A DNA stretch of 64,000 bases from Draconibacterium sediminis (lineage in GTDB: Bacteria > Bacteroidota > Bacteroidia > Bacteroidales > Prolixibacteraceae): the NCBI RefSeq assembly GCF_000949475.1, contig NZ_JRHC01000004.1, positions 310,001 to 374,000 of the forward strand, in the 5' to 3' direction. A program made the translations under genes and the position numbers. The notes beneath the pieces are model-generated. The model made no database searches, had not been told where the DNA came from, and saw only the letters and a list, made by a program, of their open reading frames with translations. This document shows positions 4,211 through 22,765 of this stretch, one piece after another (position 1 is the first letter of the stretch; each line of letters begins with the position of its first letter).

Positions 4211-4434
4211 TTTTGGAATCCGGTTTTTGCCGGATTTATATTGATATCTGTTTGTGTAGTTGAAGGTGTTCCGGGGCGGTAATTTGTGTGTATTGACAGA
4301 ATTTTGGTGATTTTAGTAGTGGAGCGGCAGTTGTTGGGCTTGGGGTTGTGCAGGGGTTAATGTGTTGCAAATAAAGACTATAAGGTATTTAATCGATTGG
4401 CTTAACTGTTTCCTAAAGAAATGCTAAAATTTGC
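4211..4434. other. Intergenic stretch, nothing recognised
   Basis: Between the terminator of paralogue 1 and the upstream box of paralogue 2. I see no credible reading frame, hairpin or repeat here. Confidence 0.6.
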
Positions 4435-4475
4435 TTAACATGTAAAATCAAAAATGGCACGAAAATTGATATGGG
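4435..4475 (+). promoter_or_regulatory. Shared upstream box (TTAACATG) before paralogue 2
   Basis: TTAACATG at 4435-4442 followed by ATGGCACGAAAATTG, nearly the same as the box at 3339 and a similar distance (about 220 bases) before the start codon. Confidence 0.4.
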
Positions 4476-4588
4476 AGAAATCAATTTCTGTAGAGCTTGT
4501 AAATAAAGGTGTTAAGACATTGTTAACGATCTTCATGTTAAGTCTAATGTTAAATATAATGTAGTTATTTAATTTTTTAAACATGTTG

Positions 4589-4621
4589 TTTGGCATATAT
4601 GCTGTAAAACATGTATGTTTG
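4589..4621 (+). promoter_or_regulatory. Bacteroidota promoter of paralogue 2
   Basis: TTTG at 4589-4592 and TATGTTTG at 4614-4621, spaced 21 bases. The spacer is nearly identical to that at 3498-3518, so the promoter was duplicated with the gene. Confidence 0.75.
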
Positions 4622-4658
4622 TACTGTCATTCAATGTTAAACAAAAAAACGAATGGTT

Positions 4659-5243: not shown

Positions 5244-5269
5244 TCAGAAAATGTTATTGGTTTTTTAGA

Positions 5270-5304
5270 TAAGGCTGTCAGAAATTAACTGATGGCCTTT
5301 TTTT
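5270..5304 (+). terminator. Intrinsic terminator of paralogue 2
   Basis: AAGGCTGTCAG pairs imperfectly with CTGATGGCCTT, followed by a run of nine T. It is recognisably related to the terminator of paralogue 1. Confidence 0.75.
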
Positions 5305-5476
5305 TTACCTTTTACTTTTGTTTACCCTAAATATTGATTGATTAAGCGGGTTGTTGAGATCGGTTTTTTTTGTGTTGACCGACGTTACCTTGTTGTTGGT
5401 CGACAAGTTCCAAAATAGCGTAACGAAGGTGCTGTTTTTGTGTCTATTAAGTAAGAAACAATTAAATGAAAAAGTC

Positions 5477-6058
5477 ATGAAAACAAAAGTTTGGGCTGTT
5501 ATAGTCCTGGCATTTCTTGTTGCGGGAGCGGCAAGTGCCACCGAGTTACCAAAAATGAATGTTGTTCAGGTGAAAGAAAACACGGCAATGCTTGCCTATA
5601 GTTTTTCTCACGAAGCACCCTTGCAGGTGAGCCTTACCAGTTTCGACGGTGAGTTGCTATACCACAAGGAAACCGAACATCAGACAGAGTTTAAAAAAAT
5701 GTTCGATTTTTCAGAATTGGGTGATGGTTTGTATTGTATTAGCGTCAACTACGGCAACCAAAGTATAAACCGTGTAGTGAAAGTTGAGGATAAGCAAATT
5801 ATCGTTAGTAGTGCTTCCTTTTGTTACGAGCCCTATTATAAGGTAAATGGAAAAATGGTTAATCTGTCATTTTTAAATACCCGGAATAAACCGGTGTATG
5901 TTAATATATACCAAAACGGAGAACATATTGACGGGTCGAACCTTGGCCGCGATCTGACTATTCAAACCCGCCTGGATTTTAGTCACTTAAAAAGAGGTAC
6001 CTACGAAGTTGTGTTAACCGACTGTGTAAAAGATCATAGATATACGCTAAAACTATAA
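5477..6058 (+). CDS. Secreted two-domain beta-sandwich protein, paralogue 3
   Basis: 193 residues from the ATG at 5477, which gives the same MKT-plus-hydrophobic signal peptide as the other copies; the longer open frame from 5351 has no such logic. The mature start ATELPKM parallels AVEKPKM of copies 1 and 2, but the body is more diverged. The two-unit pattern is kept (FDGELLYHKE...FDFSELGDGLYCISV; LSFLNTRNKPVYVNIYQNGEHI...LDFSHLKRGTYEVVL). Three cysteines occur in the mature part, unlike copies 1 and 2. The upstream region lacks the TTAACATG box and the strong promoter seen for copies 1 and 2, so it may be regulated differently. Confidence 0.75.
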   Translation: MKTKVWAVIVLAFLVAGAASATELPKMNVVQVKENTAMLAYSFSHEAPLQVSLTSFDGELLYHKETEHQTEFKKMFDFSELGDGLYCISVNYGNQSINRVVKVEDKQIIVSSASFCYEPYYKVNGKMVNLSFLNTRNKPVYVNIYQNGEHIDGSNLGRDLTIQTRLDFSHLKRGTYEVVLTDCVKDHRYTLKL

Positions 6059-6341: not shown

Positions 6342-7235
6342 GTGCATATTAAAATAGAAAATTTAAACAAAATCTACAAGGGAGGTAGTTACGCTGTAAA
6401 CAATCTCAACCTTGAAATTCCAAACGGAATGTTTGGCCTTTTGGGGCCAAACGGGGCTGGAAAATCAACCCTTATGCGCATTTTGGTAACTTTAATGAAA
6501 CCAACAAGCGGAAAGGTATATTATAACGACTACGAACTTTCGAAAAACCGGCGCGAAATTCGCTCGATGTTGGGGTATTTGCCCCAGGATTTTAGTTTCT
6601 TCTCGAAGCTGAAAACCTCTGAGTTCCTGGATTATACAGCCCGGTTGGCGGGAATGAAAAGCGGCGCAGCACGCCGAAGTGCGGTTGACCAAATGCTGGA
6701 AGAGGTAGGTTTGTTTGAAGTGCGCGACCGAAATGCAAATAAACTTTCGGGTGGTATGAAACGCCGTTTGGGAATTGCCCAGGCACTGATAAATGATCCG
6801 CAGATTATTATTGTTGATGAGCCTACCACCGGTCTCGATCCCGAAGAACGTATCCGCTTCCGTAACCTGCTTTCAACCATTAGTACCCGCGACGTAATTA
6901 TTATCCTGTCGACACACATTGTGGGCGATATTTCGAGTACCTGCGATAATATGGCATTACTCAACCAGGGGAAACTGGCATTTGCCGGATCGCCCGAGCA
7001 ACTGGTAAAAGAAGCCGAAGGCCATGTTTGGGTTATTGAAGCTACTGAACAGGAATACCTGGAGATAAACGAAAAATACCCTGTAATTTCTACCATCCCA
7101 ATCGACGGAGGCTGGGAGGTGCAGGTTGTTGCCAATGAAATTAACGGTTACCAGGGAAAACCTATGGACCCGAACCTGGAGCACGCTTATGTGCACTTTA
7201 TGGAAAACAAACTAAACCAATGGTCTAACGCTTAA
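6342..7235 (+). CDS. ABC transporter ATP-binding protein (efflux operon gene 1)
   Basis: Cytoplasmic ATPase of 297 residues that powers an ABC-2 type exporter, presumably with the permease encoded 10 bases downstream. Walker A GPNGAGKST at 35-43, Q-loop YLPQ at 79-82, signature LSGGM at 135-139, Walker B IIIVDEP at about 155-161, D-loop GLD, and switch histidine in STHI are all intact. The last 80 residues form an accessory domain. It is clearly related to the ABC module fused to the RND pump later in the operon (same GMFGLLGPNGAGKST, EFLDY and ERIRFRNLL blocks), so one arose from the other or both from one ancestor. First gene of a collinear operon running to 22373. Confidence 0.93.
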   Translation: MHIKIENLNKIYKGGSYAVNNLNLEIPNGMFGLLGPNGAGKSTLMRILVTLMKPTSGKVYYNDYELSKNRREIRSMLGYLPQDFSFFSKLKTSEFLDYTARLAGMKSGAARRSAVDQMLEEVGLFEVRDRNANKLSGGMKRRLGIAQALINDPQIIIVDEPTTGLDPEERIRFRNLLSTISTRDVIIILSTHIVGDISSTCDNMALLNQGKLAFAGSPEQLVKEAEGHVWVIEATEQEYLEINEKYPVISTIPIDGGWEVQVVANEINGYQGKPMDPNLEHAYVHFMENKLNQWSNA

Positions 7236-7245: not shown

Positions 7246-10200
7246 ATGATTTCGTTACATAACATATTCTCAATAGCAAAATACGAGCGGAAAACACTAT
7301 TCCGCAGCTGGTTTTTCCGCATATTCAGTATCCTCTCATTATTCGTATTGTTTGGAATGAACTTCGGAATGGTGATTGAAGGCGGCGGTGGCGAAAGCTG
7401 GGCCATTCGTGCTATTCCGAGTGCTATCCCGTATTTTAATTTGCTGATATTAAATGTGGCCCAGGCGGTAATTGCTGTGTTTTTGGCGTCCGACTTTTTA
7501 AAACGCGATAAAAAATTAGATACTACCGAGGTAATATACATGCGGTCGATGACCAACGGCGAATACGTTATCGGAAAAACACTGGGCAACATGCAGGTGT
7601 TTATGATTCTTAACGTTGCTGTGGTAATTCTGGCACTTGTTTTTAATGCGCTGGCAAAAGGTACTCCCATCGATTGGGTTTCGTACGGCGTATATCTGGT
7701 GCTGATAAGTATTCCAACCCTTGTTTTTATTATGGGCTTGTCGTTTTTGCTGATGAGTGTAATCCGCAACCAGGCCATCACTTTTGTGTTGGTGCTTGGT
7801 TATATCGGGATCACCCTCTTTCTCTTACAGGCAAAATATTATTACATTTTCGATTACATGGCGTTTAACATCCCCATGTTAAGTTCCGATATTGTTGGAT
7901 TTAGCAATCTTGATGTAATTCTTATCCATCGCGGAATATATTTCGGGCTTGGATCAGGTTTCATTTTCCTTACCATTTTCTTACTGAAACGACTGCCACA
8001 GTCAGAAGCAATGACTTACGTGTCGCTTATTTTCAGTGTAATATTTATTGGTGGAGCCGGTTATCTGGCTTTTAATCACATCAACAGTTTCAAAAAAACC
8101 GAAGCTTTACGAGCCGATATTATCGAGCTGAATAATCAATATGTAAAAGAACCACTGGCCGATGTGCTTTCGCACGATATTGTACTCGATCATAATGGCG
8201 AGTCGTTGAATGTTCAATCGGCAATGTTGCTAAAAAACAATTTGCAGCAGCCTTTGTCGAAACTGATTTTTAGTTTAAATGCGGGCCTTGAAATTACCGA
8301 TCTGAAAATAAACGGAAAAACAGCACCATTTGTACGCGAAGATCATTTGGTTATTGTTTCCGATCAACCTGGATTGCAACCGGGCGATAGTACAAAAGTT
8401 GAATTTACATACAACGGAACAATCGACGAAGCGTATTGCTACCTGGATATCGACGAAGAATTACGGCAGGAAAAATACGGACAATTTGTATTGAATGTGG
8501 ATAAACGTTACGCTTTTGTAACGCCTGACTATGTGTTGCTTACGCGTGAAGCCAACTGGTATCCGAAAGTTGGTGTTACCTACAGCTCTGAAGATGTGAG
8601 TTGGTACAAACCCGAGTTTGTGGATTATTCGTTAACGGTGAATACAAAAGAAGGATTGCAGGCGGTTTCGGAAGGTGAAATGACAGCCGTTTCGGCAGGT
8701 AAGTTCCATTTTGAACCGCAAACACCGCTAACACAACTTTCGTTGGCAATTGGTAAATACGAATATAAAAGTCTGGAGCATAACGATTTCGAATTTGGCA
8801 TCTGGCTTATCGAAGGTCACGACCATTTCAGTACTGTTTTCCCCGAATCGAAAGACACACTGGCTTCCGTAATTTACGAACGTTTCGAAGATTTCCAACG
8901 TGGTTATAACCTGGAGTACAATTCCGATAAACTGGCATTGGTTGAAGTTCCGGCGCAGTTTAAAACCTACGAGCGCATGTGGACATCGGTACAGGAAGTT
9001 ATTCAGCCCGGCAAGGTGCTTATTCAGGAAAAAGGCTACATGTTTCGCGAAGCCGATTTTGAAAAACAAAAAGAACGAATGGACCGGTGGAGAGGCCGTG
9101 GAGGCGGTGGCGAGATGACCGATGAAGATAAAGAGTTGCGCGTGCTTGGGCAGTTTCTTGAGAAATTTACCGAAGAAAATGAAACCGAACGCCGTTGGAG
9201 GCGTGGTGAAATGAGCATGGATCAGTCGCAAAATCCGTACTTTATTTTTCCGTGGTTATACAATTTTCAAAACAATATTCAATCGGATAAATGGCCGATT
9301 ACCAATCGCGTTTTCGAGGCTTATTTAAAAAGCCAGTCTACCGATATGCGATCGATTTTTATGAGTAGCATGAGTGGTGAAAGCCCCGAGATTATGGCCA
9401 ATATTGCCTTGCAGGATTATTCGTTCGAGGAAATTCTTGCCGACCCTGATCAAAGCGATATCGTAAACAGCGTGATTAAACTGAAAGGCGATGTGCTTTT
9501 CTCAACCGTAAAACTGGAAGCCGGCGAAGAAGATTTTGAAGATTTTCTGCGTGGCGTATTGGAAAAATATAAGTACCAGAATATTTCGTTCGAGGAATTT
9601 GACGAAGAGATTAAAGCCAGGTTTGGTATTGAGCTTGAGCCAATGATGAACGGTTGGTTTAAGGCCAAAACGTTGCCGGGCTACCTGGTTTCGCCCATAA
9701 AAGGTGTAAAAGTAAAATCGGGCGATGCCATGAAAACCATGATCTCGCTGAAGGTTACCAACTTTTCGGATGTTGATGGTTTGGTAAAACTCACGTTCCG
9801 ACTTGGAGGTGGCGGCGGTGGCCGTGGTTTTGGCCCTCCGGGAATGGGCTCGGAAGATGCAATAGACAAGCTGATTGAATTGGCAGCCCACCAAACGAAA
9901 GAACTGAGCTACCTGTTTGATGGTGCGCCGCGGATGGTTATTTTTAATTCTTTAACATCGAAGAACGTTCCGCAAACCTATATGGAAATGTTCCGCGAAG
10001 TGGAAGAAGACCTGAAAGCCAGGGTGTGGGAAGGAGAACGTATCAGTTCAACTCCGGTTCAAACAAAACTACCGAATGAAGAAATTGTGGATAACGAAGA
10101 TCCGGGTTTCGAAATTACTGAAAATCACCAGGTGAGTTTGCTCGAAAAACTAATTGTAAAAGAAGAAGAGACAAAACAGAAATATTCGAGTGTAAACCAG

Positions 10201-10593
10201 TGGAGACCGCCGTTGTCGTGGACCGCCACAACCAGCGATGAGTTTTATGGCGAGTACGTTCGTTCGGCCTACTACATAAAAGGCGGAAATGGCGAGCAGG
10301 TTGCCCGCTGGAATGTTCCGGTAAAAGAAGCCGGTTACTACGACGTTTATTACCACTTTTATAAAGGACGCGGATTTGGCCGTAACCGTGGAGAAGAGAA
10401 GGGAAGTTTAAACTTTATTATTCATGGCGACGACGGAGCGGAAGAAGCTTTCCTTGATTCGCAAAGTGCCGAAACCGGGTGGGTGCATTTAGGCTCATTT
10501 TATTTCTCGTCGGAAAAGGCGGTAATTGAATTAACGGATAAAACTGAACTGCGAATGATATACGCCGACGCAGTAAAAATTGTGAAATTATAA
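7246..10593 (+). CDS. ABC-2 permease fused to an M1-aminopeptidase-like region and a golvesin-like C-terminal domain
   Basis: 1115-residue multidomain membrane protein. Residues about 1-270 hold seven hydrophobic helices of an ABC-2 permease. Residues about 280-900 are a large extracytoplasmic region resembling the M1 peptidase architecture found fused to permeases in Bacteroidota, but I find neither HExxH nor the GxMEN motif, so peptidase activity is unlikely. A charged linker contains glycine runs (about 615-625 and 857-866). The last 130 residues (WTATTSDEFYGEYVRSAYYI ... IYADAVKIVKL) look like a golvesin C-terminal-like beta-sandwich. It starts 10 bases after its ATPase. Probable role: the membrane part of an exporter with a large periplasmic domain that could contact the TolC/adaptor parts encoded next. 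Confidence 0.8.
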   Translation: MISLHNIFSIAKYERKTLFRSWFFRIFSILSLFVLFGMNFGMVIEGGGGESWAIRAIPSAIPYFNLLILNVAQAVIAVFLASDFLKRDKKLDTTEVIYMRSMTNGEYVIGKTLGNMQVFMILNVAVVILALVFNALAKGTPIDWVSYGVYLVLISIPTLVFIMGLSFLLMSVIRNQAITFVLVLGYIGITLFLLQAKYYYIFDYMAFNIPMLSSDIVGFSNLDVILIHRGIYFGLGSGFIFLTIFLLKRLPQSEAMTYVSLIFSVIFIGGAGYLAFNHINSFKKTEALRADIIELNNQYVKEPLADVLSHDIVLDHNGESLNVQSAMLLKNNLQQPLSKLIFSLNAGLEITDLKINGKTAPFVREDHLVIVSDQPGLQPGDSTKVEFTYNGTIDEAYCYLDIDEELRQEKYGQFVLNVDKRYAFVTPDYVLLTREANWYPKVGVTYSSEDVSWYKPEFVDYSLTVNTKEGLQAVSEGEMTAVSAGKFHFEPQTPLTQLSLAIGKYEYKSLEHNDFEFGIWLIEGHDHFSTVFPESKDTLASVIYERFEDFQRGYNLEYNSDKLALVEVPAQFKTYERMWTSVQEVIQPGKVLIQEKGYMFREADFEKQKERMDRWRGRGGGGEMTDEDKELRVLGQFLEKFTEENETERRWRRGEMSMDQSQNPYFIFPWLYNFQNNIQSDKWPITNRVFEAYLKSQSTDMRSIFMSSMSGESPEIMANIALQDYSFEEILADPDQSDIVNSVIKLKGDVLFSTVKLEAGEEDFEDFLRGVLEKYKYQNISFEEFDEEIKARFGIELEPMMNGWFKAKTLPGYLVSPIKGVKVKSGDAMKTMISLKVTNFSDVDGLVKLTFRLGGGGGGRGFGPPGMGSEDAIDKLIELAAHQTKELSYLFDGAPRMVIFNSLTSKNVPQTYMEMFREVEEDLKARVWEGERISSTPVQTKLPNEEIVDNEDPGFEITENHQVSLLEKLIVKEEETKQKYSSVNQWRPPLSWTATTSDEFYGEYVRSAYYIKGGNGEQVARWNVPVKEAGYYDVYYHFYKGRGFGRNRGEEKGSLNFIIHGDDGAEEAFLDSQSAETGWVHLGSFYFSSEKAVIELTDKTELRMIYADAVKIVKL

Positions 10594-10679: not shown

Positions 10680-12176
10680 ATGAAAACAAAAATCAAACTT
10701 ATGCAAAAGCTGGCAATTGCCTTGTTTCTTATGGCGGCTGCAACTTTTGCTGTTCAGGCACAAGAGGCCTTAACCCTTGAAAGGGCTTTGAGTATTGCCG
10801 AAACGGGAAGCCCTGATTTGAAGCTCTCGTTGTTAAATCTCGAGCGCTACCAAAAAAACCTGGAAGCCCAGCGAGCCGCTCTGAAATCACGTTTCTCGTT
10901 GCAGGTTAATCCTGTAAATTACAGTAAACAGCGGCGTTTCGACAACCGTGTTTCCGAGTGGTATACCAACGAAAACTTCGAAACAAGTACCTTGTTTACA
11001 GTTGCTCAGCCAATTTTAATAACCGATGGTACCATCTCGCTAACCAACGAGTTTGGCTGGTCGAGTAATAATTCAAGTTCATCGTTTACCGAAAGTGAGG
11101 TCTTTTTTAATAACCTGTATTTGAACCTGAATCAGCCCTTATTTACTTATAACACTTTAAAACTTCAATTGAAGGAGCTGGAGCTGAACTTTGAAAATGC
11201 CCGAATCAGTTACGCCATGCAGTACCTGAACCTTGAAAGAAGAGTGACGGAGTTTTTCTACAATGTTTATATGGCGCAAATGAACTTGTCGATTGCAAAA
11301 GACGAACTGGCCAATACACAAAAAAGTTACGACATAATAAAAAACAAGGTTGAAGCCGGTTTGGCAGCAAAAGAAGAAGAATACCAGGCAGAATTAAACC
11401 TGGCATCGGCAAAATCTACATTGCAAAACAGCGAAGTAACCTTCGAAAACGCCAAAGATCAATTGAAGCTTTATTTAGGCATGGATCTTTTTGAAGATAT
11501 CATGATTTTAGCCGACGTGAGTGTAAACCCTGTTCCTGTTGATTTGGATAAAGCCATTGAAAATGGTTTGGAATCAAGAATGGAGCTGCGTCAACGCGAA
11601 ATCGATGTGGAAACCAGTCAGTTTGATCTGATCAGAACCAAAGCACAGAACGAATTCAGAGGAGATATGAATTTGCGATTTGGTATTACCGGCGATAACA
11701 ATGAGTTGGGAAATATTTACCAAAACCCAACAAAAAGTCCGTCGGTAGGTATCAGTTTTAATATCCCAATTTTCGACTGGGGCGAGCGTAAAGCACGAAT
11801 TGCCGCGGCCGAAGCAGCTATCGAGTCGCAGGAGTTGAACCTGAATGAAGAAAAGAAACAAATTGTTGTTGATATTCGCCAGGTTTACCGTAACATCCTA
11901 AACCAGTTGAACCAGATTGAACTGGCCAGACAAAATGAGCGCAATGCTCAGCTAACCTACGAAATTAACCTGGAGCGTTACGAAAACGGCGACCTGACAG
12001 GTATGGATTTAAACCTGTATCAAAACCAGCTTTCGTCGCAGAAAGTGGCATTAAGCCAGGCACTTATCAATTATAAAATCGAGTTATTAAACCTAAAAAT
12101 ACAATCGTTGTACGATTTCGAAAAAGACGAAGCCATTATTCCTGAGGAATTGTACGTAACCGATGGTCAAGAATAA
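10680..12176 (+). CDS. TolC-family outer-membrane efflux channel
   Basis: 498 residues with a Sec signal peptide ending near VQAQ (about residue 28). It carries two OEP repeats: an N-terminal one opening with LTLERALSIAE and a second from about residue 280, both with long coiled-coil helices rich in Leu, Glu and Gln (such as LNLASAKSTLQNSEVTFENA). Members trimerise into an outer-membrane barrel with a periplasmic tunnel and accept substrate from adaptor-pump complexes. In this operon it should serve the RND pumps and perhaps the ABC parts. 86 bases follow the permease and 71 precede the adaptor, which fits co-transcription. Confidence 0.93.
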   Translation: MKTKIKLMQKLAIALFLMAAATFAVQAQEALTLERALSIAETGSPDLKLSLLNLERYQKNLEAQRAALKSRFSLQVNPVNYSKQRRFDNRVSEWYTNENFETSTLFTVAQPILITDGTISLTNEFGWSSNNSSSSFTESEVFFNNLYLNLNQPLFTYNTLKLQLKELELNFENARISYAMQYLNLERRVTEFFYNVYMAQMNLSIAKDELANTQKSYDIIKNKVEAGLAAKEEEYQAELNLASAKSTLQNSEVTFENAKDQLKLYLGMDLFEDIMILADVSVNPVPVDLDKAIENGLESRMELRQREIDVETSQFDLIRTKAQNEFRGDMNLRFGITGDNNELGNIYQNPTKSPSVGISFNIPIFDWGERKARIAAAEAAIESQELNLNEEKKQIVVDIRQVYRNILNQLNQIELARQNERNAQLTYEINLERYENGDLTGMDLNLYQNQLSSQKVALSQALINYKIELLNLKIQSLYDFEKDEAIIPEELYVTDGQE

Positions 12177-12247: not shown

Positions 12248-13324
12248 ATGAAAAATATACCAAAAATGAAACATATAAAATTACTTATCCTGTTAGGTGT
12301 TGTTGTTGCCGCCATTTCGTGTAACAACCAAACCGGTTCTGAGTCAACTGAGTTAGCTGTTCCTGTTTCAGTTGAAAACATCAAGCTTAAAAGTATTCAG
12401 CAATTTGTAAGCACTACCGGAACTGCAAAAGCCGTGTACGAAACTGAATTGAGTTCTGAAATTCAGGGAAATTATATTTTGCAAACCAACCCGAGAACGG
12501 GCCGCAAATTTCAATTGGGCGACCGCGTTGAAAAAGGTCAGGTTATTATAAAACTGGAAAATGCAGAATACCTGAACGGGCTGAATATTGAGTCGACAAA
12601 ACTGAATCTCGAGATTTCGCAGCAGGAATACGAAAAGCAGAAGTCGTTGTACGAAAAAGGTGGTGTAACTCTTCTCGAAATGCGTAACTCAGAAGTTTCG
12701 ATGATTTCAGCCAAAAACAATTTCGAAAGTGCTGAAATACAGTTGGCAAAAATGCAGGTTGTTGCTCCTTTTTCAGGAATTATCGTTGCGTTGCCATATT
12801 ACACCGAGGGTGTTCGCGTATCGTCCGGCGAAAGTATGGTTAGCCTGATGAACTACAACAAAATGTATGTAGAGATTAACTTGCCCGAGAAAAACATTTC
12901 GGAAGTTACAACCGGACAGGAAGTAATGATTACAAACTATACGCTTACTGAAGATACGCTTGTGGGGCATGTTACCGAACTGTCGCCAATTATCAGCGAC
13001 GAAACACGCACATTTACTGGTAAGCTCGAAATTGATAATCCGGAGTTGAAACTACGTCCGGGAATGTTTATAAAAGCCAACATTATTACGGCTCAAAAAG
13101 ACAGTGCCGTTGTTATCCCGAAAGACGTGATAATGACCGGCTCGCGCGGAAAATATGTATTTATTGTTGGGCGTAACAGCGCTGCCAACGATCGTCGCAT
13201 CACAACAGGTATCTCCAACCAGGATGAAATTGAAGTAGTTGAAGGCCTTAACGCGAACGACCGTTTAATTATAAAAGGATTTGAAACACTCCGCGATAAT
13301 TCAAAAGTAAAAGTGATTTTATAG
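12248..13324 (+). CDS. RND/HlyD-type periplasmic adaptor lipoprotein
   Basis: Membrane-fusion protein of 358 residues bridging inner-membrane pump and TolC channel. The signal peptide ends in a lipobox (AAISC, Cys25), so it is lipid-anchored. Order of domains: barrel-sandwich first half with VEKGQVIIKLENAEY (about 98-112), coiled-coil hairpin (about 115-165), second lipoyl half with QVVAPFSGIIVALPYYTEGVRV (about 167-190), beta-barrel, then membrane-proximal domain with IPKDVIMTGSRGKYVFIV. A second ATG at 12266 would still leave a full signal peptide; the first was kept. Sits between tolC and the RND gene, as in standard tripartite operons. Confidence 0.93.
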   Translation: MKNIPKMKHIKLLILLGVVVAAISCNNQTGSESTELAVPVSVENIKLKSIQQFVSTTGTAKAVYETELSSEIQGNYILQTNPRTGRKFQLGDRVEKGQVIIKLENAEYLNGLNIESTKLNLEISQQEYEKQKSLYEKGGVTLLEMRNSEVSMISAKNNFESAEIQLAKMQVVAPFSGIIVALPYYTEGVRVSSGESMVSLMNYNKMYVEINLPEKNISEVTTGQEVMITNYTLTEDTLVGHVTELSPIISDETRTFTGKLEIDNPELKLRPGMFIKANIITAQKDSAVVIPKDVIMTGSRGKYVFIVGRNSAANDRRITTGISNQDEIEVVEGLNANDRLIIKGFETLRDNSKVKVIL

Positions 13325-13354: not shown

Positions 13355-16300
13355 ATGAAAAAATTAACGCAATTTTCTGTCGATTACCCGGTTACCGTTT
13401 TAATGGTGGTGCTTGGCGTTTTGTTGCTGGGCTACATTTCGTACGATAAATTGGGAGTCGATCTGTTTCCCGATCTGAATTCACCCCGCATTTTTGTGGA
13501 AGTGACTTCGGGCGAGCGGCCTCCGGAAGAAATGGAGCAGCAGTTTGTTGAAAACATCGAAGCGCTTGCCATTCGCCAGTCCGACGTGGTGCAGGTAACT
13601 TCTTCATCAAGGGTAGGATCGGCACAAATAACCGTGGAATACGCCTGGAATAAAGATATGGACGAAGCTTTTCTCGACCTGCAAAAGGCCTTGAATACGC
13701 TTACCCAGAATTCCGATATCGACGAACTTCAGATCACCCAACACGATCCGAACACCACCCCGGTAATGATAATTGGGCTAAAGCACAACGAAATTACCAA
13801 CATGAACGAGCTGCGAAAAGTAGCTCAAAACTACGTTAGAAACGAGTTGGTTCGTTTGGAAGGTGTTGCCGAGGTTGAGCTGTCGGGCCAGGAAGAAAGT
13901 GAAATTATTATTGAAACCGATATTTACCGGCTCGATGCGCAGGGGCTTAGCATGGATGAAGTAGCTTCGCGCATTCAGAATTTTAACCGCAACGTTTCCG
14001 GTGGTCAAATTACCGACATGGGTACGCAATACATTGTAAAGGGTGTATCGATGTTGCAAACTGTTGAGGATTTTGAGAACCTGATTGTGGGGTACAAAGC
14101 GGTTCGCAGCACCGAAACAAATGCCAGTCAAAATCAGGGCTCAATGGCTCCGGTTTATCTGAAAGACGTGGCAGCGGTTTCTATCGGTAATAAAGAACCA
14201 ACAAACATTGTTCATATTAACGGCGAACGTTGTTTGGGGCTTTCCATTTTTAAAGAAACAAAATTCAATACGGTAAATGCTGTTGAACAGATCAACGAAG
14301 CGTTGGTAGACATTGAAAAAGCACTTCCGGGTTATGAGTTGATTGGCGTTACCAACCAGGGGCGTTTTATCAGCAGTGCCATTGGCGAAGTACAGGAAAC
14401 TGCTTTGCTGGGTATTTTGCTGGCCGTGGTGGTTTTGTTTGTTTTCCTTCGTCGTTTCGGAACTACACTGATTGTAAGTATTGCCATTCCGATTTCAATT
14501 GTGGCCACTTTCAACCTGATGTATTTTAACCACCTCACCATAAATATTATGACATTGGGAGGGCTCGCCTTAGGTGCGGGTATGTTGGTTGACAATGCCA
14601 TTGTGGTTTTGGAGAATATATTCCGAAACCACGAAAACGGTATGAGTGTAAAAGATGCAGCAATAAACGGAACTGCCCAGGTGGGAGGTGCTATTACGGC
14701 ATCAACACTTACAACCATTATCGTTTTCCTGCCCATCGTTTATTTACACGGTGCTTCGGGCGAGTTGTTTAAAGATCAGGCCTGGACGGTAGCATTTTCA
14801 CTGCTTTCGTCGTTGGTTGTGGCTATCTTCTTAATCCCGATGATGTACCACCGTTTTTACCGTAAACAAACCGCGCCGCTGAAATCAAAATCGGTAAAAG
14901 TTGGCGGTTATGGCCGTTTTCTATCAAAAGTTATTGATGCAAAATGGGTGGTAATAATCATTACAACTTTAGCCATTGGTGGAGCCGGTTTATTGATACC
15001 GCAGATTGGTACCGAGTTTATGCCAAAAACACAAACGCACGAACTTACTGTTAACCTGAAATTGCAGGAAGGAACAGAACTGGAACGCACAGAGTCGACA
15101 GTGAGAAACCTGGAAGGTATTTTAATGGACTACCTGGGTGACAACCTGGATAAAATTTATTCGCAGGCCGGTCCGTCATCAAGTATTTCGGGTGACCAGA
15201 ATGCTGTTTTTGAAGGCGAAAATACGGCAGAGTTGAAGGTGATTCTTAAACCTGAATCAACCATATCAACCGAAAGTATTGTAAAAACACTCGATCAGTT
15301 AACAGCCAATATCGAAGGACTGGAAGTGAATTTCTCACAGGAAGAAAGTGCACTGCAGTCGATTCTTGGAACCGACGAAGCACCTGTTGTGGTTGAGGTT
15401 CGTGGCGAGGAACTGGACGAAATTGAGCGTGTTGTTAACCAGGTAAAAGAAAAAATGCAGGGTGTTAACGGCCTGTTTAATATTCAAACATCGATTGAAG
15501 ATGGTGCGCCTGAAGTTGAAATTCATGTCGACCGCATGCGTGCCGGAATGTACAACATCGATATCAACAATGTAATTACGCAAATGCAGGATCAGTTGCA
15601 GGGTAAAGATGCCGGAGCACTGGAACGCAGTGGCGAGATGCAGGATATTACCATTAAAGTTCCGGAGAAAGGTATCGATGAAATCGGTTCGCTGATTATT
15701 ACATCGGGCGATCAGGTTTTCCGTTTAAGCGAAATTGCCGATATCAGTTACGGCGTATCGCCCAAAGAAATTTTCAGAAGGAACCAGAACCGCATAGGAA
15801 AAGTTACAGCACAGTTGGAAGACGGTATTCCATTGGATCATGTAGCAAACGATATTCGTGTGCAAACAGCAGGCATCGATTTATTACCCGATTACCGAAT
15901 CATGGTAACCGGAGAAGAGGAGAAACGTCAGGAATCGTTGACTAACCTTACTTTTGCATTGTTGCTTTCCATTGTGTTGGTATACATGGTGCTGGCCTCT
16001 CAGTTCGAGTCGCTCATTCACCCGTTTACCATTCTGTTAACTATTCCGCTGGCTGTGGTGGGTAGTGTTCTTGTTTTCTTTATTCTCGGAAAAACATTCA
16101 ACATCATGGCCATTATCGGGGTGATTATGTTGGTGGGTATTGCCGTAAACGACTCGATCATTCTGGTCGACCGTATCAATCAGCTCATCCGCGAAGGAGT
16201 AGAACGAAAACAAGCCATTCTGCAAGCCGGGCAGCAACGTATTCGGCCAATTGTTATGACCAGTTTAACAACCATATTAGCCCTGTTACCACTTACCGTT

Positions 16301-16450
16301 GGTTTTGGCGAAAGTGCATCGTTGCGTTCGCCAATGGCGCTGGCAGTGGTTGGCGGTTTGGTAACATCAACTTTGCTTACCCTTATTGTAATACCTTGTG
16401 TTTACGATGTTTTGGATAGGGTGAGGAGTGTTTTTGTGAAGAAGAATTAG
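13355..16450 (+). CDS. RND-family efflux permease (HAE1-like), first pump
   Basis: 1031-residue proton-driven inner-membrane pump with the usual two-fold layout: TM1, large periplasmic porter loop, TM2-7, second loop, TM8-12. TM4 carries GAGMLVDNAIVVLENI, in which the first acidic residue of the AcrB Asp-Asp pair is kept and the second is Asn. TM10 has GIAVNDSIILVD in the place where AcrB has its lysine, so the proton relay differs from AcrB but resembles many environmental RND pumps. It follows the adaptor by 30 bases and should assemble with it and TolC. Substrate unknown. Confidence 0.93.
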   Translation: MKKLTQFSVDYPVTVLMVVLGVLLLGYISYDKLGVDLFPDLNSPRIFVEVTSGERPPEEMEQQFVENIEALAIRQSDVVQVTSSSRVGSAQITVEYAWNKDMDEAFLDLQKALNTLTQNSDIDELQITQHDPNTTPVMIIGLKHNEITNMNELRKVAQNYVRNELVRLEGVAEVELSGQEESEIIIETDIYRLDAQGLSMDEVASRIQNFNRNVSGGQITDMGTQYIVKGVSMLQTVEDFENLIVGYKAVRSTETNASQNQGSMAPVYLKDVAAVSIGNKEPTNIVHINGERCLGLSIFKETKFNTVNAVEQINEALVDIEKALPGYELIGVTNQGRFISSAIGEVQETALLGILLAVVVLFVFLRRFGTTLIVSIAIPISIVATFNLMYFNHLTINIMTLGGLALGAGMLVDNAIVVLENIFRNHENGMSVKDAAINGTAQVGGAITASTLTTIIVFLPIVYLHGASGELFKDQAWTVAFSLLSSLVVAIFLIPMMYHRFYRKQTAPLKSKSVKVGGYGRFLSKVIDAKWVVIIITTLAIGGAGLLIPQIGTEFMPKTQTHELTVNLKLQEGTELERTESTVRNLEGILMDYLGDNLDKIYSQAGPSSSISGDQNAVFEGENTAELKVILKPESTISTESIVKTLDQLTANIEGLEVNFSQEESALQSILGTDEAPVVVEVRGEELDEIERVVNQVKEKMQGVNGLFNIQTSIEDGAPEVEIHVDRMRAGMYNIDINNVITQMQDQLQGKDAGALERSGEMQDITIKVPEKGIDEIGSLIITSGDQVFRLSEIADISYGVSPKEIFRRNQNRIGKVTAQLEDGIPLDHVANDIRVQTAGIDLLPDYRIMVTGEEEKRQESLTNLTFALLLSIVLVYMVLASQFESLIHPFTILLTIPLAVVGSVLVFFILGKTFNIMAIIGVIMLVGIAVNDSIILVDRINQLIREGVERKQAILQAGQQRIRPIVMTSLTTILALLPLTVGFGESASLRSPMALAVVGGLVTSTLLTLIVIPCVYDVLDRVRSVFVKKN

Positions 16451-16489: not shown

Positions 16490-16888
16490 ATGAAAATGGA
16501 TTACAAATATTCTGATTTAACCGAAGCAATAATTAAATGCTTCTATAAGGTCTACAATGAATTGGGATATGGTTTTCTTGAAAAAGTCTATCACAATGCA
16601 CTTTTAATTGAGTTGCAAAATGAGGAGTTGAAAGTTGAATCGCAGAAACCAATAAAAGTAAGTTATCAGGGTGATGTAGTTGGAGAATATTATGCCGATA
16701 TTATTGTGGAGGATGTTGTAATTCTTGAGCTAAAAGCAACCGAAACTGTGACTGAAGCGCATGAGTTTCAACTGATAAATTATTTGAAAGCGACGAATAT
16801 AGAAATTGGTTTACTGCTAAACTTTGGGAAGAAACCAGAAATACGGAGGAAAATATTTACTAATAATAAATCTGTGAATATCAGCTAA
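16490..16888 (+). CDS. GxxExxY-family protein (PD-(D/E)XK nuclease-like)
   Basis: 132 residues (126 if the ATG at 16496 is used). The family name motif is seen as GYGFLEKVYHNAL, followed by YYADIIVEDVVILELKATE, which has the D...ExK pattern of PD-(D/E)XK nucleases, and a C-terminal NYLKATNIEIGLLLNFG block. These genes are scattered in Bacteroidota with no established biological role; nuclease activity is an inference from the fold. It interrupts a pump operon in the same orientation and is flanked by dispersed-repeat words, so it looks like an inserted cassette rather than a pump component. Confidence 0.85.
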   Translation: MKMDYKYSDLTEAIIKCFYKVYNELGYGFLEKVYHNALLIELQNEELKVESQKPIKVSYQGDVVGEYYADIIVEDVVILELKATETVTEAHEFQLINYLKATNIEIGLLLNFGKKPEIRRKIFTNNKSVNIS

Positions 16889-16922: not shown

Positions 16923-19900
16923 ATGAAATTCATTATCAACAGAAAAATATTCATCAGTATGCTGTTTCTGGGATTAACCATGTTGGGTTATATCTCTTAC
17001 AAACAGTTGCCGGTGGAACTCATGCCAAATGCCGAGCTCCCGATGCTGTATGTCCAGATCCGGTCGCAGATTGAGGTCGATCCGAGCTATTTGGAAAATC
17101 AGGCCGTTATTCCGGTTGAAGGAGCGATCGGGACGATGGAAGGTATTGAAGATATGGAGTCGTCTATAAATAACCGATCGGCATCTATACAGGTAAATTT
17201 TAAACAGAACGTCAATTTTAAATACACTTTCCTGAAATTGCAGGAGAAGATTGATTTGATTGCCGGCGAGCTCGATGATAACTTTACTGTAACGGTTAAC
17301 CGCGTTGATCTGGATCAGCTTACCAATCAGTTTATGGAACTGCAGATTCGTGGTAGCGGGGGAGTTGATCGTGTGCGTAATATCGTTGACCAGGAAATTA
17401 CCGCCCAAATGGAGAACATTGACGGGGTGGCTTCGGTTTCGGTTTTTGGTGGTAAAGAGCGTTCAATTGAAGTAACCTACGATGCAGGTGCCTGCGAAGC
17501 TTACGGAATTACACCGGCTCAAATTCGAAGTGCTATTTCAGGCAATTCTACCAACCGAACATTTACCGGTTACCTGCACGATGCACAGAAGCAGTATTTT
17601 GTGCATGTTACGGCTGAATACGATAAAGTTTCGGATATCGAAAACATAGTTGTGGCCGATGGCCCGATTTATTTAAAAGATGTAGCCGATGTATTTTTTG
17701 GCGTAAAAGAAGAAACATCGATCAGTCGTATAAACGGATTGGATGCGGTTTCGATGAGCCTGGTGAGCGATTCGCAGGCCAACCTTATCGAACTGTCGCA
17801 TAACGTACAGGCCGAAATTGCGGAATTAAACAGAAAACTGGCTGCCAAAGATGTACAAATCGTGGTCCAGACTAACCTGGCCGAAACCATGGAGAAAAAC
17901 ATCGATCAGATTATTGATCTGGCACTGGTTGGAGGCTTGCTGGCCATTTTTGTACTTTGGATGTTCCTGAAAAACCTGCGCATTGTTTCATTTATTGCAC
18001 TGGCCATTCCAATTTCGGTATTTACCGCATTCAACCTGTTTTACGCTTTTAATATTTCGCTGAACAGTTTAACGCTGGTTGGCCTGGTTTTGGCCATCGG
18101 AATGCTGCTCGACAATAGTATTGTTGTGCTCGAAAATATTTACCGGCTCTCGGGGAATAAAATGAGCCCCGAGCAATCGGTAACGCAGGGAACAAAAGAG
18201 GTTTGGCGTTCGATTGTAGCGGCTACACTTACAACTGTTACCGTATTTTTACCCTTTGTTTTCTCGGCCGATTACATGGTAAAACTGCTGGGTAACCACG
18301 TGGGCGTTTCCATTATTTCAACGCTTATAGTTTCGTTATTTGTGGCTTTGCTGCTCATTCCAATGGCGGCTCACTTGCTGTTGCGCATAAAGCGCCAACA
18401 CAATGTGTTTTACGAAAAAGTAACCACCAATAACCGAATTATTCAAATTTATATTCTGCTGCTGAAAGCCAGTATGCGTGTTCCTGCGCGTACGATTATC
18501 GGTGCATTGGTATTCTTCTTTTTAACCGTATTTATAGTGTTGGCAGTTAGTGTTACCAACCTTCAGGAGGTGGAAGAGGAGCAATTCAATATTTACGTTA
18601 CCATGCCAACCGGTACAACACTGGAAGCAACCGACAAAGTTGTTGCCGATGTGGAAAGCAGGCTGGAAGATGTTGCTGAAAAGCAGGACCTGTCTGCCAA
18701 TATCGAGGCCGAGGAGGCGATTCTGACATTTATTCTTCGTGAAGATTACAAAGATATTGATGACCGTAGCATTGAAGAAATCAAAAAAGATGTTGAAGAT
18801 CGTCTTCGTAATGTTTCGCAGGGAGAGGTTGGACTTGATGCACCTACGTCGAGTGCACGTTTCCGTGGTGGTGGCGGCGGTGGTCGTTCTGGTACGCAGG
18901 GATTCCAGCAATTTATGGGAATTGGCTCGAATCAGGAACGCGTGGTGATAAAAGGCGAAAACTTTGAGGTAATGAAAGGTGTGGCTGAAGACTTACTGTA
19001 CTACATCGAAGATCTTGAAACGATTCGTCGTGCAAACATTAGTGTGGCGAACAACCGGCCCGAAGTACATATGTATTTCAACCAGATGCTGCTGACCGAA
19101 TACGGAATTACACTTCAGAATATAACTTCGGAGTTGGGAACATTTACAAGCCAGTTCACCTCGGGTGTGAATTTCAAACAGGGTACGGAAGAATATGAAA
19201 TCGTAATCAAAGAAAAATTACCCGATGGTGTTGAAGAAGAGGAGATTGAAAAAGGTATTGAAGATCTTCGTCGCCTGCAGGTAAGCAATAACCAGGGCGC
19301 AACCTATGATATGGATGAACTGGCCGATATGGTGTATGCCGAAGGAATGGCCAGCATTACCCGTGTAAACCAGGAAAAACAGATTGAATTAACCTACCGG
19401 TTTGTTGATGAGGCCAGCGAATCGAAAGATCTGCTGGAGGCTTACCGGTTGGAGATTGACGAAATAATCGGTGCTTATAAACTACCTTCCGGAGTTGCCG
19501 TTGAGGTAATCCACGAAGAAGATCAGTATGCCGAATTTAAGTTTCTGATTGCCGCTGCATTCATTCTTATTTTAATGATTCTGGCATCGGTTTTCGAATC
19601 GGTATCAACACCGTTTGTGCTGATTTTCTCTATTCCGCTTGCGGCTATCGGATCATTCCTGGCACTTATTTTTACAGGAAACAGCCTGTTTAACGCCAAC
19701 ACTTTAATGGGCTTTATTATCCTGATTGGGGTGGTGGTGAACAACGGAATTATACTGATTGATTATACCAACATTCTCCGAAAGCGGGGCTTCCGGAAGT
19801 CGCGTGCTTTAATGGCTGCCGGTCTTTCGCGTGTTCGCCCGATTTTAATTACTGCCATTACTACCATTGTTGCGTTATTTCCGCTGGCAATGGGGCAGGC

Positions 19901-21644
19901 CGAATATGTGGGTGCCATTGGCGCTCCGTTTGCCATTACTGTAATTGGTGGTTTGGCATTAAGTACGGTGCTTACCCTGGTTTTCATTCCAACATTATAC
20001 GCCGGAATGGAAAATGCGTTAGATTGGATTAAATCGTTACATCTTGGATTAAAACTGGGCATGTTAGCGGTGTTTATTATAGGTGCTGTTCTTATTTACT
20101 TGCGCGTGGATAGCTTTGTATGGCAACTGCTTGATTTTATTCTGTTGATTATTTTGGTGCCGGGTGTTGTCGCTTTTACAATGACCAGTTTGCGCCAGGC
20201 CAGCGAAAAAATTGTAGATGAAAACGAGCCGATAAGAATTAAAGTAAGAAGGCTGGTGAAAATTTACGACCGCGATTCGCGATTTGTACGTGAGTGGAAA
20301 TCGGGATTAAGAATTCGCGAGCGTGCCGGATTAACGAAAGATTATAAGCATCTCCGCGATTTTTCTGACCTTGTATGGCAGATACCGCTGTTTGTTTTTG
20401 TGGCTTATTTCACCTTTTTCTACATCGAAAGCCATTTGTGGATGTGGGTGTTGTCGCACGGTGTTTTCTTCTTCCTTTTCCTATTAAGGGTACCGCTAAA
20501 CCAGGTGCTGATCAATAAACACGAAGCAACGGGTAAAGCTTTTTATCTTAAACTGAATAAGTGGATATATAACATATTGTTCTGGATCGTGCCGCTTGTT
20601 TTCCTGCTCTATTTCTACAAAGACTGGGATAACCTGGGCATGGTGATTTTCCTTGCGATTATTTGGTATGTTCTGTTGGTGTTCTATGCAACAGCAGAAT
20701 ACATCCATAACAAAGACGTAAATATTGCGCGTATCGAAGGGCGTTTTGGTGCCCTGCGTCGTGGATACTTTAACATGGTTCGCCAAATTCCTGTGATCGG
20801 AAAACGCAAGAAACCTTTCCGTGCATTAAACGGCGTTTCGCTGGAGATTAAAACGGGTATGTTTGGATTACTTGGACCAAACGGTGCCGGTAAGTCAACC
20901 ATGATGCGGATTATTACCGGTGTGCTCGAGCAGAGTTACGGAAAGATCTGGATTAACGGAATGGATACCCAAAAATACCGTGAGGAATTGCAGGGATTGA
21001 TCGGGTATTTACCACAGGCTTTTGGAACCTACGAAAATATGTCGGCATGGGAATTCCTCGATTATCAGGCTATCCTGAAAGGTATAAAAGATACCAAAAC
21101 GCGTGAAGACCGTTTGGAATATGTACTAAAAAGTGTTCATATGTGGGAGCGCCGGACAGATAAAATCGGTGCATTCTCGGGCGGTATGAAACAACGGATT
21201 GGTATTGCACAAATTCTGCTGAACCTGCCACGTATTTTGGTGGTTGACGAACCTACCGCCGGTCTCGACCCGCGCGAACGTATTCGTTTCCGTAACCTGC
21301 TGGTAGAGCTGAGCCGTGAGCGGATCGTAATTTTCTCGACTCACATTATCGAAGATATTTCAAGTTCGTGTAACCAGGTAGCCGTAATTAACCGCGGTAA
21401 CCTGAAATATTTCGGAACACCAAACGATATGGTGAATATGGGTAATAATTTTGTTTGGCAGTTTTCGGTTCCGGCTAAGGAATTCGATAATATGGCCAAT
21501 AAACAAATGATTGTTCACCACATGCGCGATGGCGAAAATATTAAGATGCGTTGCCTGGCAAAAGAAAAGCCGGCGCCCGACGCGGTTAATGTATTGCCAA
21601 ACCTTGAGGATGCTTATTTGTGTTTGTTAAAAGACTTTGTTTAA
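16923..21644 (+). CDS. RND efflux pump fused to an ABC ATPase (hybrid pump)
   Basis: A single 1573-residue frame. Residues 1 to about 1035 are a full RND pump: TM4 has AIGMLLDNSIVVLENIYRL (one Asp kept, second Asn), TM10 has GVVVNNGIILIDYTN, and the porter loop includes a glycine run (about 643-649). Residues about 1040-1260 add an extra membrane-rich linker with roughly five or six hydrophobic segments and basic loops. Residues about 1290-1573 are a complete ABC ATPase: Walker A GPNGAGKST at about 1318, Q-loop YLPQ, signature FSGGMKQR near 1417, Walker B ILVVDEP near 1440, and STHI. The ABC part resembles gene 1 of the operon. A permease gene begins 6 bases after the stop. I infer a pump in which ATP hydrolysis and proton flow act in one complex; the domain order is not standard for either family. 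Confidence 0.88.
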   Translation: MKFIINRKIFISMLFLGLTMLGYISYKQLPVELMPNAELPMLYVQIRSQIEVDPSYLENQAVIPVEGAIGTMEGIEDMESSINNRSASIQVNFKQNVNFKYTFLKLQEKIDLIAGELDDNFTVTVNRVDLDQLTNQFMELQIRGSGGVDRVRNIVDQEITAQMENIDGVASVSVFGGKERSIEVTYDAGACEAYGITPAQIRSAISGNSTNRTFTGYLHDAQKQYFVHVTAEYDKVSDIENIVVADGPIYLKDVADVFFGVKEETSISRINGLDAVSMSLVSDSQANLIELSHNVQAEIAELNRKLAAKDVQIVVQTNLAETMEKNIDQIIDLALVGGLLAIFVLWMFLKNLRIVSFIALAIPISVFTAFNLFYAFNISLNSLTLVGLVLAIGMLLDNSIVVLENIYRLSGNKMSPEQSVTQGTKEVWRSIVAATLTTVTVFLPFVFSADYMVKLLGNHVGVSIISTLIVSLFVALLLIPMAAHLLLRIKRQHNVFYEKVTTNNRIIQIYILLLKASMRVPARTIIGALVFFFLTVFIVLAVSVTNLQEVEEEQFNIYVTMPTGTTLEATDKVVADVESRLEDVAEKQDLSANIEAEEAILTFILREDYKDIDDRSIEEIKKDVEDRLRNVSQGEVGLDAPTSSARFRGGGGGGRSGTQGFQQFMGIGSNQERVVIKGENFEVMKGVAEDLLYYIEDLETIRRANISVANNRPEVHMYFNQMLLTEYGITLQNITSELGTFTSQFTSGVNFKQGTEEYEIVIKEKLPDGVEEEEIEKGIEDLRRLQVSNNQGATYDMDELADMVYAEGMASITRVNQEKQIELTYRFVDEASESKDLLEAYRLEIDEIIGAYKLPSGVAVEVIHEEDQYAEFKFLIAAAFILILMILASVFESVSTPFVLIFSIPLAAIGSFLALIFTGNSLFNANTLMGFIILIGVVVNNGIILIDYTNILRKRGFRKSRALMAAGLSRVRPILITAITTIVALFPLAMGQAEYVGAIGAPFAITVIGGLALSTVLTLVFIPTLYAGMENALDWIKSLHLGLKLGMLAVFIIGAVLIYLRVDSFVWQLLDFILLIILVPGVVAFTMTSLRQASEKIVDENEPIRIKVRRLVKIYDRDSRFVREWKSGLRIRERAGLTKDYKHLRDFSDLVWQIPLFVFVAYFTFFYIESHLWMWVLSHGVFFFLFLLRVPLNQVLINKHEATGKAFYLKLNKWIYNILFWIVPLVFLLYFYKDWDNLGMVIFLAIIWYVLLVFYATAEYIHNKDVNIARIEGRFGALRRGYFNMVRQIPVIGKRKKPFRALNGVSLEIKTGMFGLLGPNGAGKSTMMRIITGVLEQSYGKIWINGMDTQKYREELQGLIGYLPQAFGTYENMSAWEFLDYQAILKGIKDTKTREDRLEYVLKSVHMWERRTDKIGAFSGGMKQRIGIAQILLNLPRILVVDEPTAGLDPRERIRFRNLLVELSRERIVIFSTHIIEDISSSCNQVAVINRGNLKYFGTPNDMVNMGNNFVWQFSVPAKEFDNMANKQMIVHHMRDGENIKMRCLAKEKPAPDAVNVLPNLEDAYLCLLKDFV

Positions 21645-21650: not shown

Positions 21651-22373
21651 ATGGAAAGACAATTCGATATAAAAAACAGGCTGTATATTTTAATTAAAAT
21701 GATACGGTATAATTTACGAATCATTTTTGCCAACCGCTTTATATGGTTTTTAATAGCAGCACTTGGTTTCTTTTTATTTTTTGCCATACAAACGGTATAT
21801 AACGGCGGCTCCATGTCGGAAGAAATGGTGTATAGCTTACTGATATTTCCTGGCATTTTGCTCATTTTCTATCCCTCGGTTTTTGGTATACAAAACGACG
21901 ATGATTCGCGGATGCTGGAAATACTTTTCGGAATACCGAACTACCGTTATAAAGTTTGGCTGGTGCGTTTGGTAATGATCTATACGCTGGTATTTGTTAT
22001 TATCTTTCTGTTTTCGGCCCTGGCTTCGGTGCTGCTGTACAAAATTAACCTGCTTGAAATGTCGTACCAGTTAATGTATCCGATTATATTTTTAGGATCG
22101 ATGGCATTTATGTTCTCCACCATTGTTAAAAACGGAAACGGAACAGCGGTAACCATGGTTTTAATTGGTGTGGCACTGCTGATATTGCGCGAAGATTTAA
22201 TGCAGGGTACGCAGTGGGATGTTTTTCTGAACCCGTTTGAAATACCAAATAACCTGAACGAAGTGATCTGGATAGGAATAATCCGGAAGAACCGGATTTT
22301 TATGGGGATCGCCACTTTGGTGTTTGTTTTGTACGGCCTTTTTAATTTACAGAAACGCGAAAAGTTTGTTTAA
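21651..22373 (+). CDS. ABC-2 type permease (efflux operon last gene)
   Basis: 240 residues with six predicted membrane helices (about 18-42, 57-75, 101-127, 137-155, 164-180, 215-232), the size and shape of a short ABC-2/CcmB-like permease. An amphipathic start and the ILFGIPNYRYKVWLVRL block between helices 2 and 3 are typical coupling-region features. It starts 6 bases after the RND-ABC fusion, so it is the likely partner of the fused ATPase. Together with gene 2 it gives the operon two permeases for two ATPases. Substrate unknown. Confidence 0.82.
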   Translation: MERQFDIKNRLYILIKMIRYNLRIIFANRFIWFLIAALGFFLFFAIQTVYNGGSMSEEMVYSLLIFPGILLIFYPSVFGIQNDDDSRMLEILFGIPNYRYKVWLVRLVMIYTLVFVIIFLFSALASVLLYKINLLEMSYQLMYPIIFLGSMAFMFSTIVKNGNGTAVTMVLIGVALLILREDLMQGTQWDVFLNPFEIPNNLNEVIWIGIIRKNRIFMGIATLVFVLYGLFNLQKREKFV

Positions 22374-22502: not shown

Positions 22503-22765
22503 ATGAATAACGCCAAGGAACACATAAAGGTTGTTAAGGAATGGAAGATGGCGTGAAGGAACTCATGAGCAACGTGAAGGAACACAAGGTAAGCGTCAAG
22601 GAACGCATGAGCAGCTTTTAAGGAATATGTGGTAAGCGCTAAGGAACGCATGAGCAGCTTTAAGGAACACGTGTTAAGCGCTAAGGAACCCTTGAGCAGC
22701 GTTAAGGAACACATGGTGAATGCTAAGGAACGTATGGGCAACGGTAAAAAATACATAACCCACCT
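22503..22765. repeat. Decayed 21-bp (7-codon) tandem repeat tract
   Basis: About twelve diverged copies of a 21-bp unit of the form TAAGGAACNCATGNGCAGCN. Read on the + strand, each unit gives seven residues of the type (A/V)KE(H/R)MSS. The same peptide repeat is found in three successive frames: 22503-22556, 22553-22621 and 22629-22829, as if a repeat gene had taken frameshifts. The minus strand is open across the whole tract (22451-22819) and would encode a hydrophobic repeat, so the original coding strand is not certain. No CRISPR-like spacers. Confidence 0.6.

Follow-up and report, generated by a model that had tools for sequence, protein, structure and literature searches.

A conserved fusion of an RND pump with an ABC ATPase in Bacteroidota, and its candidate place in a hybrid trans-envelope exporter

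Tripartite exporters are usually classed by their engine, which draws either on ATP (ABC transporters) or on proton flow (RND and MFS transporters). An open reading frame in Draconibacterium sediminis raises the question of whether a single protein can hold both. The frame occupies positions 16923-21644 on the forward strand of a 64,000-nucleotide stretch of contig NZ_JRHC01000004.1 that was analysed as a whole (the window), and it runs from ATG to TAA without an internal stop to encode 1573 amino acids. A reading of the sequence alone had described the product as a full RND pump, a membrane-rich linker and a complete ABC ATPase. Is this joint genuine, how is the ATPase attached, and what might such a protein do?

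The frame does carry a full RND pump and an ABC ATPase, as the sequence-only reading held. The Pfam model ACR_tran matches residues 2-1027 with 554 bits and is covered from position 3 to position 1018 of 1021, which is a full-length match, and ABC_tran matches residues 1302-1446 with 97.7 bits. The source genome comprises 5.99 Mb in 19 contigs. A stop codon or frameshift near codons 1040-1290, which had been named in advance as an observation that would speak against the fusion, is not present. Separate-gene homologues, named for the same reason, are likewise missing among the loci examined where the contig continues, and the only broken case there is L114, a locus on a metagenome contig (one with 'cov_6.48' in its title) whose fusion gene falls into three frames and whose neighbouring gene, P, falls into two. 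This locus is what speaks for an assembly or sequencing artefact behind the fusion, an explanation to which we assign a vanishingly small chance and which we reject because the identical fused frame occurs in isolates and metagenome assemblies from many families. The RND-ABC fusion is confirmed as real.

The fused form turns up again in other families, where it has the same neighbours, and also outside the order and the class; such recurrence is what the sequence-only reading had proposed looking for. A search with the linker region located the fusion in 24 of 25 genomes of the genus sample, the exception (G014) being a genome that is 70% complete, and in 26 of 41 genomes overall, including one genome each from two other families of the order. 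The top named match to the linker among the matches listed is Draconibacterium mangrovi (95% identity), followed by other Draconibacterium and by Maribellus. Within the order sample, 52 of 393 genomes carry a strong match to a profile of the linker, a count that leaves out weak matches (E above about 1e-20) mostly aligned only up to Walker A; with these included, the tally at E 0.001 is 90 of 393. Full-length fused frames of at least 1500 residues make up 44 of the 52 copies, and the other eight run off the end of a contig: six have part of the RND pump in the same frame, and the contigs of the remaining two (G112 and G285) start after it.

The class sample yielded the fusion in 5 of 395 genomes, two of them outside the order and from one family, and the sample reaching beyond the class yielded it in 6 of 395 in all, two of them outside the class and from one family. 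The copies in both pairs are also fused, making four sampled genomes that carry the fusion beyond the order. A wider scan of contigs confirmed at least 370 relatives, of which the best 80 were kept; their titles name genera that we take to belong to the Bacteroidales (Bacteroides faecis, Parabacteroides goldsteinii and Tannerella forsythia are among the species) or give only Bacteroidales, Bacteroidota or Bacteroidetes. Across 100 loci, several of which come from the same genomes, 96 have the fusion in one frame (shortened in some), three (L055, L102 and L109) lie at a contig end that cuts off the start of the gene, and the last is the broken locus L114. Among plasmids, none of the best 5000 records spans 80% of the query, and one match that was inspected (H2) proved to be an RND gene beside a sugar ABC system. 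Four stretches of viral contigs fit a pattern, and none was confirmed.

The RND part of the fusion comprises residues 1-1030 (16923-20012, forward strand), as judged by Pfam, hydropathy and residue alignment. It has 12 transmembrane segments, visible as 12 hydropathy peaks in residues 1-1022. A second, unfused RND pump of 1031 residues, R, is encoded upstream (13355-16450, forward strand; assigned by Pfam), and among solved proteins MdtB is its best relative. A tree that also holds six further RND pumps of the genome places R and the fused RND part in two distinct, fully supported clades. The best match of the fusion among NCBIfam RND subfamilies is RND_permease_2, at 436.5 bits and below the cut-off of 1250.

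Residues were compared in 95 fusion sequences, drawn from 104 loci plus the window after frames of 1450 residues or fewer had been dropped; 92 are distinct (three pairs are identical), 80 remain at less than 90% mutual identity, and since all are mutually related the counts are not independent. The Asp of the fourth transmembrane segment (TM4), which corresponds to AcrB D407, is found in every fusion (95 of 95) and in every R protein (87 of 87). Asn takes the place of AcrB D408 in 89 of 95 fusions and in 87 of 87 R proteins, and that of K940 in all 95 fusions and in 86 of the 87 R proteins; D407, D408 and K940 are AcrB numbers that we assign to the aligned positions. Because the D408 and K940 positions are mostly Asn, the proton path is unlike that of AcrB. 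To our knowledge, D408 and K940 are not demanded in every RND family.

At the other end of the protein, the fused ATPase has its Walker A motif at residues 1318-1326, the Q-loop at 1362-1365, the signature at 1419-1425, Walker B at 1440-1445 and the H-loop at 1471-1475. All five motifs, with the Glu of Walker B, are present in 95 of 95 fusions. They are also present in 22 of 22 copies of A, a stand-alone ABC ATPase of 297 residues encoded farther upstream in the window (6342-7235, forward strand). On the sequences compared, which are the best 30 of 49 ATPase matches in the genome, A is the closest relative found for the fused ATPase. The two group together (98/95) in a tree of 25 rows, five of the 30 having been dropped by a motif filter, and over all 30 fetched loci they are reciprocal best blastp matches, with 226 bits against 151 for the next over a stretch of 272 residues that includes a common C-terminal extension. 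Judged by their motifs and kept residues, both engines of the fusion look intact.

Solved relatives of the fused ATPase include ABCA transporters, NosF, LptB and stand-alone ABC ATPases. The best NCBIfam models for A are drrA and GldA, both below cut-off; the GldA profile, TIGR03522, gives 176 bits for the fused ATPase and 189.8 bits for A, under its cut-off of 402.6. We rejected a role in anti-phage defence, as PADLOC matched only A (mad3, AriA and mad8) and the ATPase of the fusion (mad3), matches that we take to reflect general ATPase similarity.

The stretch between the two domains (approximately residues 1031-1298) had been taken for a membrane-rich linker. It is indeed rich in membrane segments, but it appears to be more than a linker, for one stretch within it scores as the first strand (β1) and A-loop of an ABC ATPase. 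Read along the forward strand, the RND part is followed by two extra transmembrane segments, TM13 and TM14 (residues 1042-1087, 20046-20183), seen in hydropathy and as AlphaFold2 helices, and then by the candidate β1 strand and A-loop (residues 1105-1117, RIKVRRLVKIYDR, 20235-20273), identified by motif, matrices and AlphaFold2. A predicted membrane domain between β1 and β2 comes next (residues 1150-1256, 20370-20690), with four helices in the window copy according to AlphaFold2 and hydropathy, and the rest of the ABC ATPase from β2 onwards, with its motifs and the C-terminal extension common to A, fills residues 1299-1573 (20817-21641). The fused ATPase thus appears to be split by a membrane domain, with a candidate β1 in the linker. 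The description of the ATPase as complete stands for its catalytic motifs; beyond these, the domain is complete only if the segment at residues 1105-1117 is counted.

In 95 of 95 fusions, Walker A is preceded by a segment resembling I-x-[IV]-x-x-L-V-K-I-Y; an alignment of 53 shows no variation at its I, V, K and Y. The segment lies 189-251 residues from Walker A in 93 of the 95 and 135 residues from it in the other two; in the free ATPase A, the β1/A-loop segment is 27 residues ahead of Walker A in 22 of 22 proteins. A matrix derived from the N-terminus of A selects the segment as the top-scoring site in 94 of 95 fusions and ranks it third in the exception (L081). A second matrix, drawn from 20 of the genome's other ATPases and not from A, puts it in first place within the whole protein in 95 of 95, the segment having been located by a pattern written after the alignment. 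The mean z with this second matrix is 5.1, a modest margin over the best sites in unfused RND proteins (mean z 3.9, maximum 4.8). The GldA profile aligns with A from its position 1 and with the fused ATPase only from position 16, leaving unmatched the part that β1 would fill. A contiguous ABC fold opening with β1 and the A-loop was not found in the fused ATPase.

An AlphaFold2 model of residues 1017-1573, of moderate quality (mean pLDDT 78, pTM 0.49), has residues 1106-1112 as a strand, and every other listed strand lies in the ATPase. Given the DSSP definition of a strand and the location of all the others, the partner of residues 1106-1112 should be in the ATPase, from which we infer that β1 pairs with the ATPase sheet. 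The model places two helices before this strand and four long helices between it and β2. Likewise, the 18 hydropathy peaks of the window protein divide into 12 for the RND pump and two extra, then β1, then four. Four peaks follow β1 in the window protein, L082, L161 and L167; there are three in L029, two in L163 and one in L162. The insert is probably a four-helix membrane domain in the window protein and some relatives only. With an even number of helices, the two parts of the ATPase would both lie on the cytoplasmic side.

The fusion belongs to an operon, A-M-T-F-R-fusion-P, that is kept in one order and on one strand across families. All seven genes were found in 24 of the 25 loci examined for the operon; an overlap filter hid F and P in the remaining one (L150), where P was found separately. 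Intergenic gaps, overlaps included, measure 100 bases or fewer in 133 of 147 cases, and the largest is 947 bases. Besides A, R and the fusion, the window copy encodes on the forward strand a large permease-containing protein, M (7246-10593, 1115 residues), a TolC-type outer membrane channel, T (10680-12176, 498 residues; Pfam OEP), and an RND-type periplasmic adaptor, F (12248-13324, 358 residues; RND_mfp at 191.7 bits against a cut-off of 94.9). Two different adjacent RND genes, R and the fusion, are thereby accompanied by one adaptor, as in MdtABC. The sequence-only reading had overlooked that the fusion is part of a seven-gene unit, which adds a second RND pump and a second ABC ATPase and has two ABC-2-like permeases.

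The last gene, P, starts at position 21651, so that a permease gene does lie 6 bases downstream of the fusion, as had been noted from the sequence. It encodes 240 residues with 6 hydrophobic peaks (21651-22373, forward strand), and its predicted fold is like that of a type-V (ABC-2) permease. The window copy of P has no Pfam match; among 46 relatives, two match ABC2_membrane_3 (best 9.4e-7) and 12 weakly match an acyltransferase model (best 3.4e-4). The structural model of P has a pLDDT of 88, and its top Foldseek matches are PmtD, NosY and ABCG permeases, all weak (best E 0.036, none at or below 0.001). The 52 genomes with P, out of 393, are exactly the 52 with the fusion, and in 51 of them the two genes share contig and strand. 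They lie on different contigs in G122, and in G352 a contig end leaves only a fragment of P to match.

M is assigned by Pfam an ABC-2 permease domain, an M1-like domain and a golvesin C-terminal domain, and probably has an extra transmembrane segment. It was found in 51 of 374 genomes, 46 of which have the fusion; in the other five, the contigs end before or inside the fusion. Among carriers of the fusion in the same search, G035 is without M, its contig starting inside the fusion, and G285, G305, G352, G398 and G402 are not among the genomes listed, perhaps not having been drawn. The M1-like match scores 21.8 bits, below the Pfam cut-off of 27.7. Because the HExxH zinc motif is absent from this domain in 24 of 24 proteins (M and 23 relatives), the domain is probably no peptidase and resembles a pseudo-peptidase; a catalytic M1 peptidase was rejected on the same count. 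Homology between P and M was also considered and rejected, the hhalign profile match not being significant (P-value 0.13). In some genomes, paralogues of M occur away from the operon, alone or in tandem (L209, L210, L211 and L212).

We lean slightly towards a reading in which the seven genes encode one hybrid trans-envelope exporter. The conserved operon, the co-occurrence of P with the fusion, the distribution of M, the kinship of the fused ATPase with A, and the kept TM4 Asp and ATPase motifs all argue for it; against it, sharing an operon need not mean forming a single complex. In such an exporter, R and the fused RND part would form a heterotrimer, like the adjacent RND pair of MdtABC, beneath the adaptor F and the TolC-type channel T. 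The fused ATPase would pair with its paralogue A, giving a type-V (ABC-2) transporter both of its ATPase subunits. The membrane halves of this transporter would be M and P, a permease pair that rests on the ABC-2-likeness of both because their profiles do not match. ATP hydrolysis would serve to move the substrate, or to extract it, at the inner membrane; a lipid or an amphiphile is the probable substrate. The RND trimer, with its TM4 Asp, would then drive the substrate through F and T. The covalent joint would hold the two engines together and in step, and the split ATPase would physically close.

We are more doubtful about a mechanical wiring of ATP use to the RND pump, which we put forward as a tentative proposal, short of probable. 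With a membrane domain beside the RND trimer lying between the putative A-loop strand and the catalytic core, the binding of nucleotide could clamp helices in the membrane or set them free. An ABC extraction step could in this way be synchronized with the proton-driven RND stroke within one polypeptide.

The same genes might instead encode two ABC transporters within one operon, one formed by A and M and the other by a homodimer of the fused ATPase with two copies of P, in the manner of NosFY, anchored to an RND pump that shares the TolC-type channel. The gene order fits, with A adjoining M and the fusion adjoining P, and so do the inseparability of P and the fusion in 393 genomes and the resemblance of P to NosY and of the ATPase to NosF. 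However, no paralogues closer to each other than A and the fused ATPase were found (among the best 30 of 49), and the two have a common C-terminal extension, as a heterodimer predicts. Where M was found and the fusion was not, in five genomes, the contig ends first; M paralogues that stand alone, with no A, do exist (L209-L212). We judge this arrangement unlikely, with enough in its favour to be taken seriously.

A different role for the ATPase, which strikes us as rather improbable, would be to drive or gate the RND pump directly through the extra helices, making the pump ATP-powered or ATP-gated. TM13-14 and the inserted helices do thread the ATPase into the RND membrane region, and the residues equivalent to AcrB D408 and K940 are not conserved. 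Yet the TM4 Asp is invariant (95 of 95), the proton path is equally altered in R, which has no ATPase, and the ever-present P would give the ATPase an ordinary ABC partner. The fusion could also be a device for co-expression or localization only, its engines uncoupled, since gene fusions can fix stoichiometry alone and this one might do no more. That view sits poorly with the fused frame being kept in all 44 copies of the order sample that do not leave their contig, and with an ATPase that appears to be split by membrane helices, which goes beyond what a simple tether needs; we give it very little credence. Of these readings the hybrid exporter has the best support; the sequence itself is compatible both with an RND pump powered by ATP hydrolysis and with a mere tether between two machines, the two options that the sequence-only reading had raised.

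Among known systems, MdtABC, of the HAE type, resembles this one in its full RND proteins with 12 transmembrane segments and the TM4 Asp, its RND-type adaptor, its TolC-type channel and its two adjacent RND genes. It differs in that AcrB D408 and K940 are not conserved in the fusion system, and we know of no ABC ATPase, no extra helices and no ABC permeases in MdtABC. In the type-V (ABC-2) system NosDFY, NosF resembles the fused ATPase and NosY resembles P by fold. The solved entries have NosF and NosY as distinct chains, and we know of no RND pump, TolC or adaptor attached to NosDFY. GldA-type ATPases of Bacteroidota come to mind because their profile matches the fused ATPase and A, though far under its cut-off; no GldA fused to an RND pump is known to us. 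PMC8277102 describes MdtBC as a heterotrimer and MacAB-TolC as a tripartite TolC system with an ABC engine, in which the ATPase is fused to a membrane protein. The MacB ATPase lies on the N-terminal side of its own permease, whereas that of the present fusion lies on the C-terminal side of an RND pump, and a membrane domain apparently interrupts it. The D. sediminis genome itself holds another RND pump joined to an export-chain partner (L002, C12:90567-93644, a 1453-residue open frame), but what is joined to the pump there is an outer membrane efflux (OEP) domain and not an ATP-driven engine.

The titles and abstracts of the open-licence literature searched yielded no report of an RND-ABC fusion, and the available parts of PMC8277102, PMC10434189 and PMC6281302 do not mention one; the words 'fused' and 'fusion' are absent from the part of PMC6281302 that was available. 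Each component comes from a known family; what appears to be undescribed in the literature searched is the covalent joint, together with the split ATPase and the unit of seven genes. If the hybrid reading is true, the operon would encode a natural pump with both engines, kept across Bacteroidota including gut Bacteroides and Parabacteroides, and the fusion of both in one gene would make their coupling testable by point mutations. If membrane helices do divide the first strand of an ABC ATPase from its core, the fold would be an unusual one, in a place that family profiles read as linker. The fusion genes are presumably annotated as plain RND permeases and may need renaming.

Several other features lie in or beside the operon. 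A GxxExxY (PD-(D/E)XK-like) gene occupies window positions 16490-16888, between R and the fusion. It is found at this junction in close relatives and in one locus of a different family, L165 (the loci being L035, L038, L047 and L165), and carries this label in 3 of 100 loci. Upstream of A, positions 3567-6058 encode three small, similar-looking proteins in a row. Their matches are to Por_Secre_tail, exceeding the cut-off in two, or to DUF3244, exceeding it in one. Tandem repeats with a unit of 21/42 bases (AAGGAACGCATGAGCAGC...) fill positions 22551-22747, between P and a U32 peptidase gene. In the Bacteroides loci L078, L085 and L086, a second adaptor-RND pair lies past the operon, after a single gene on the opposite strand.
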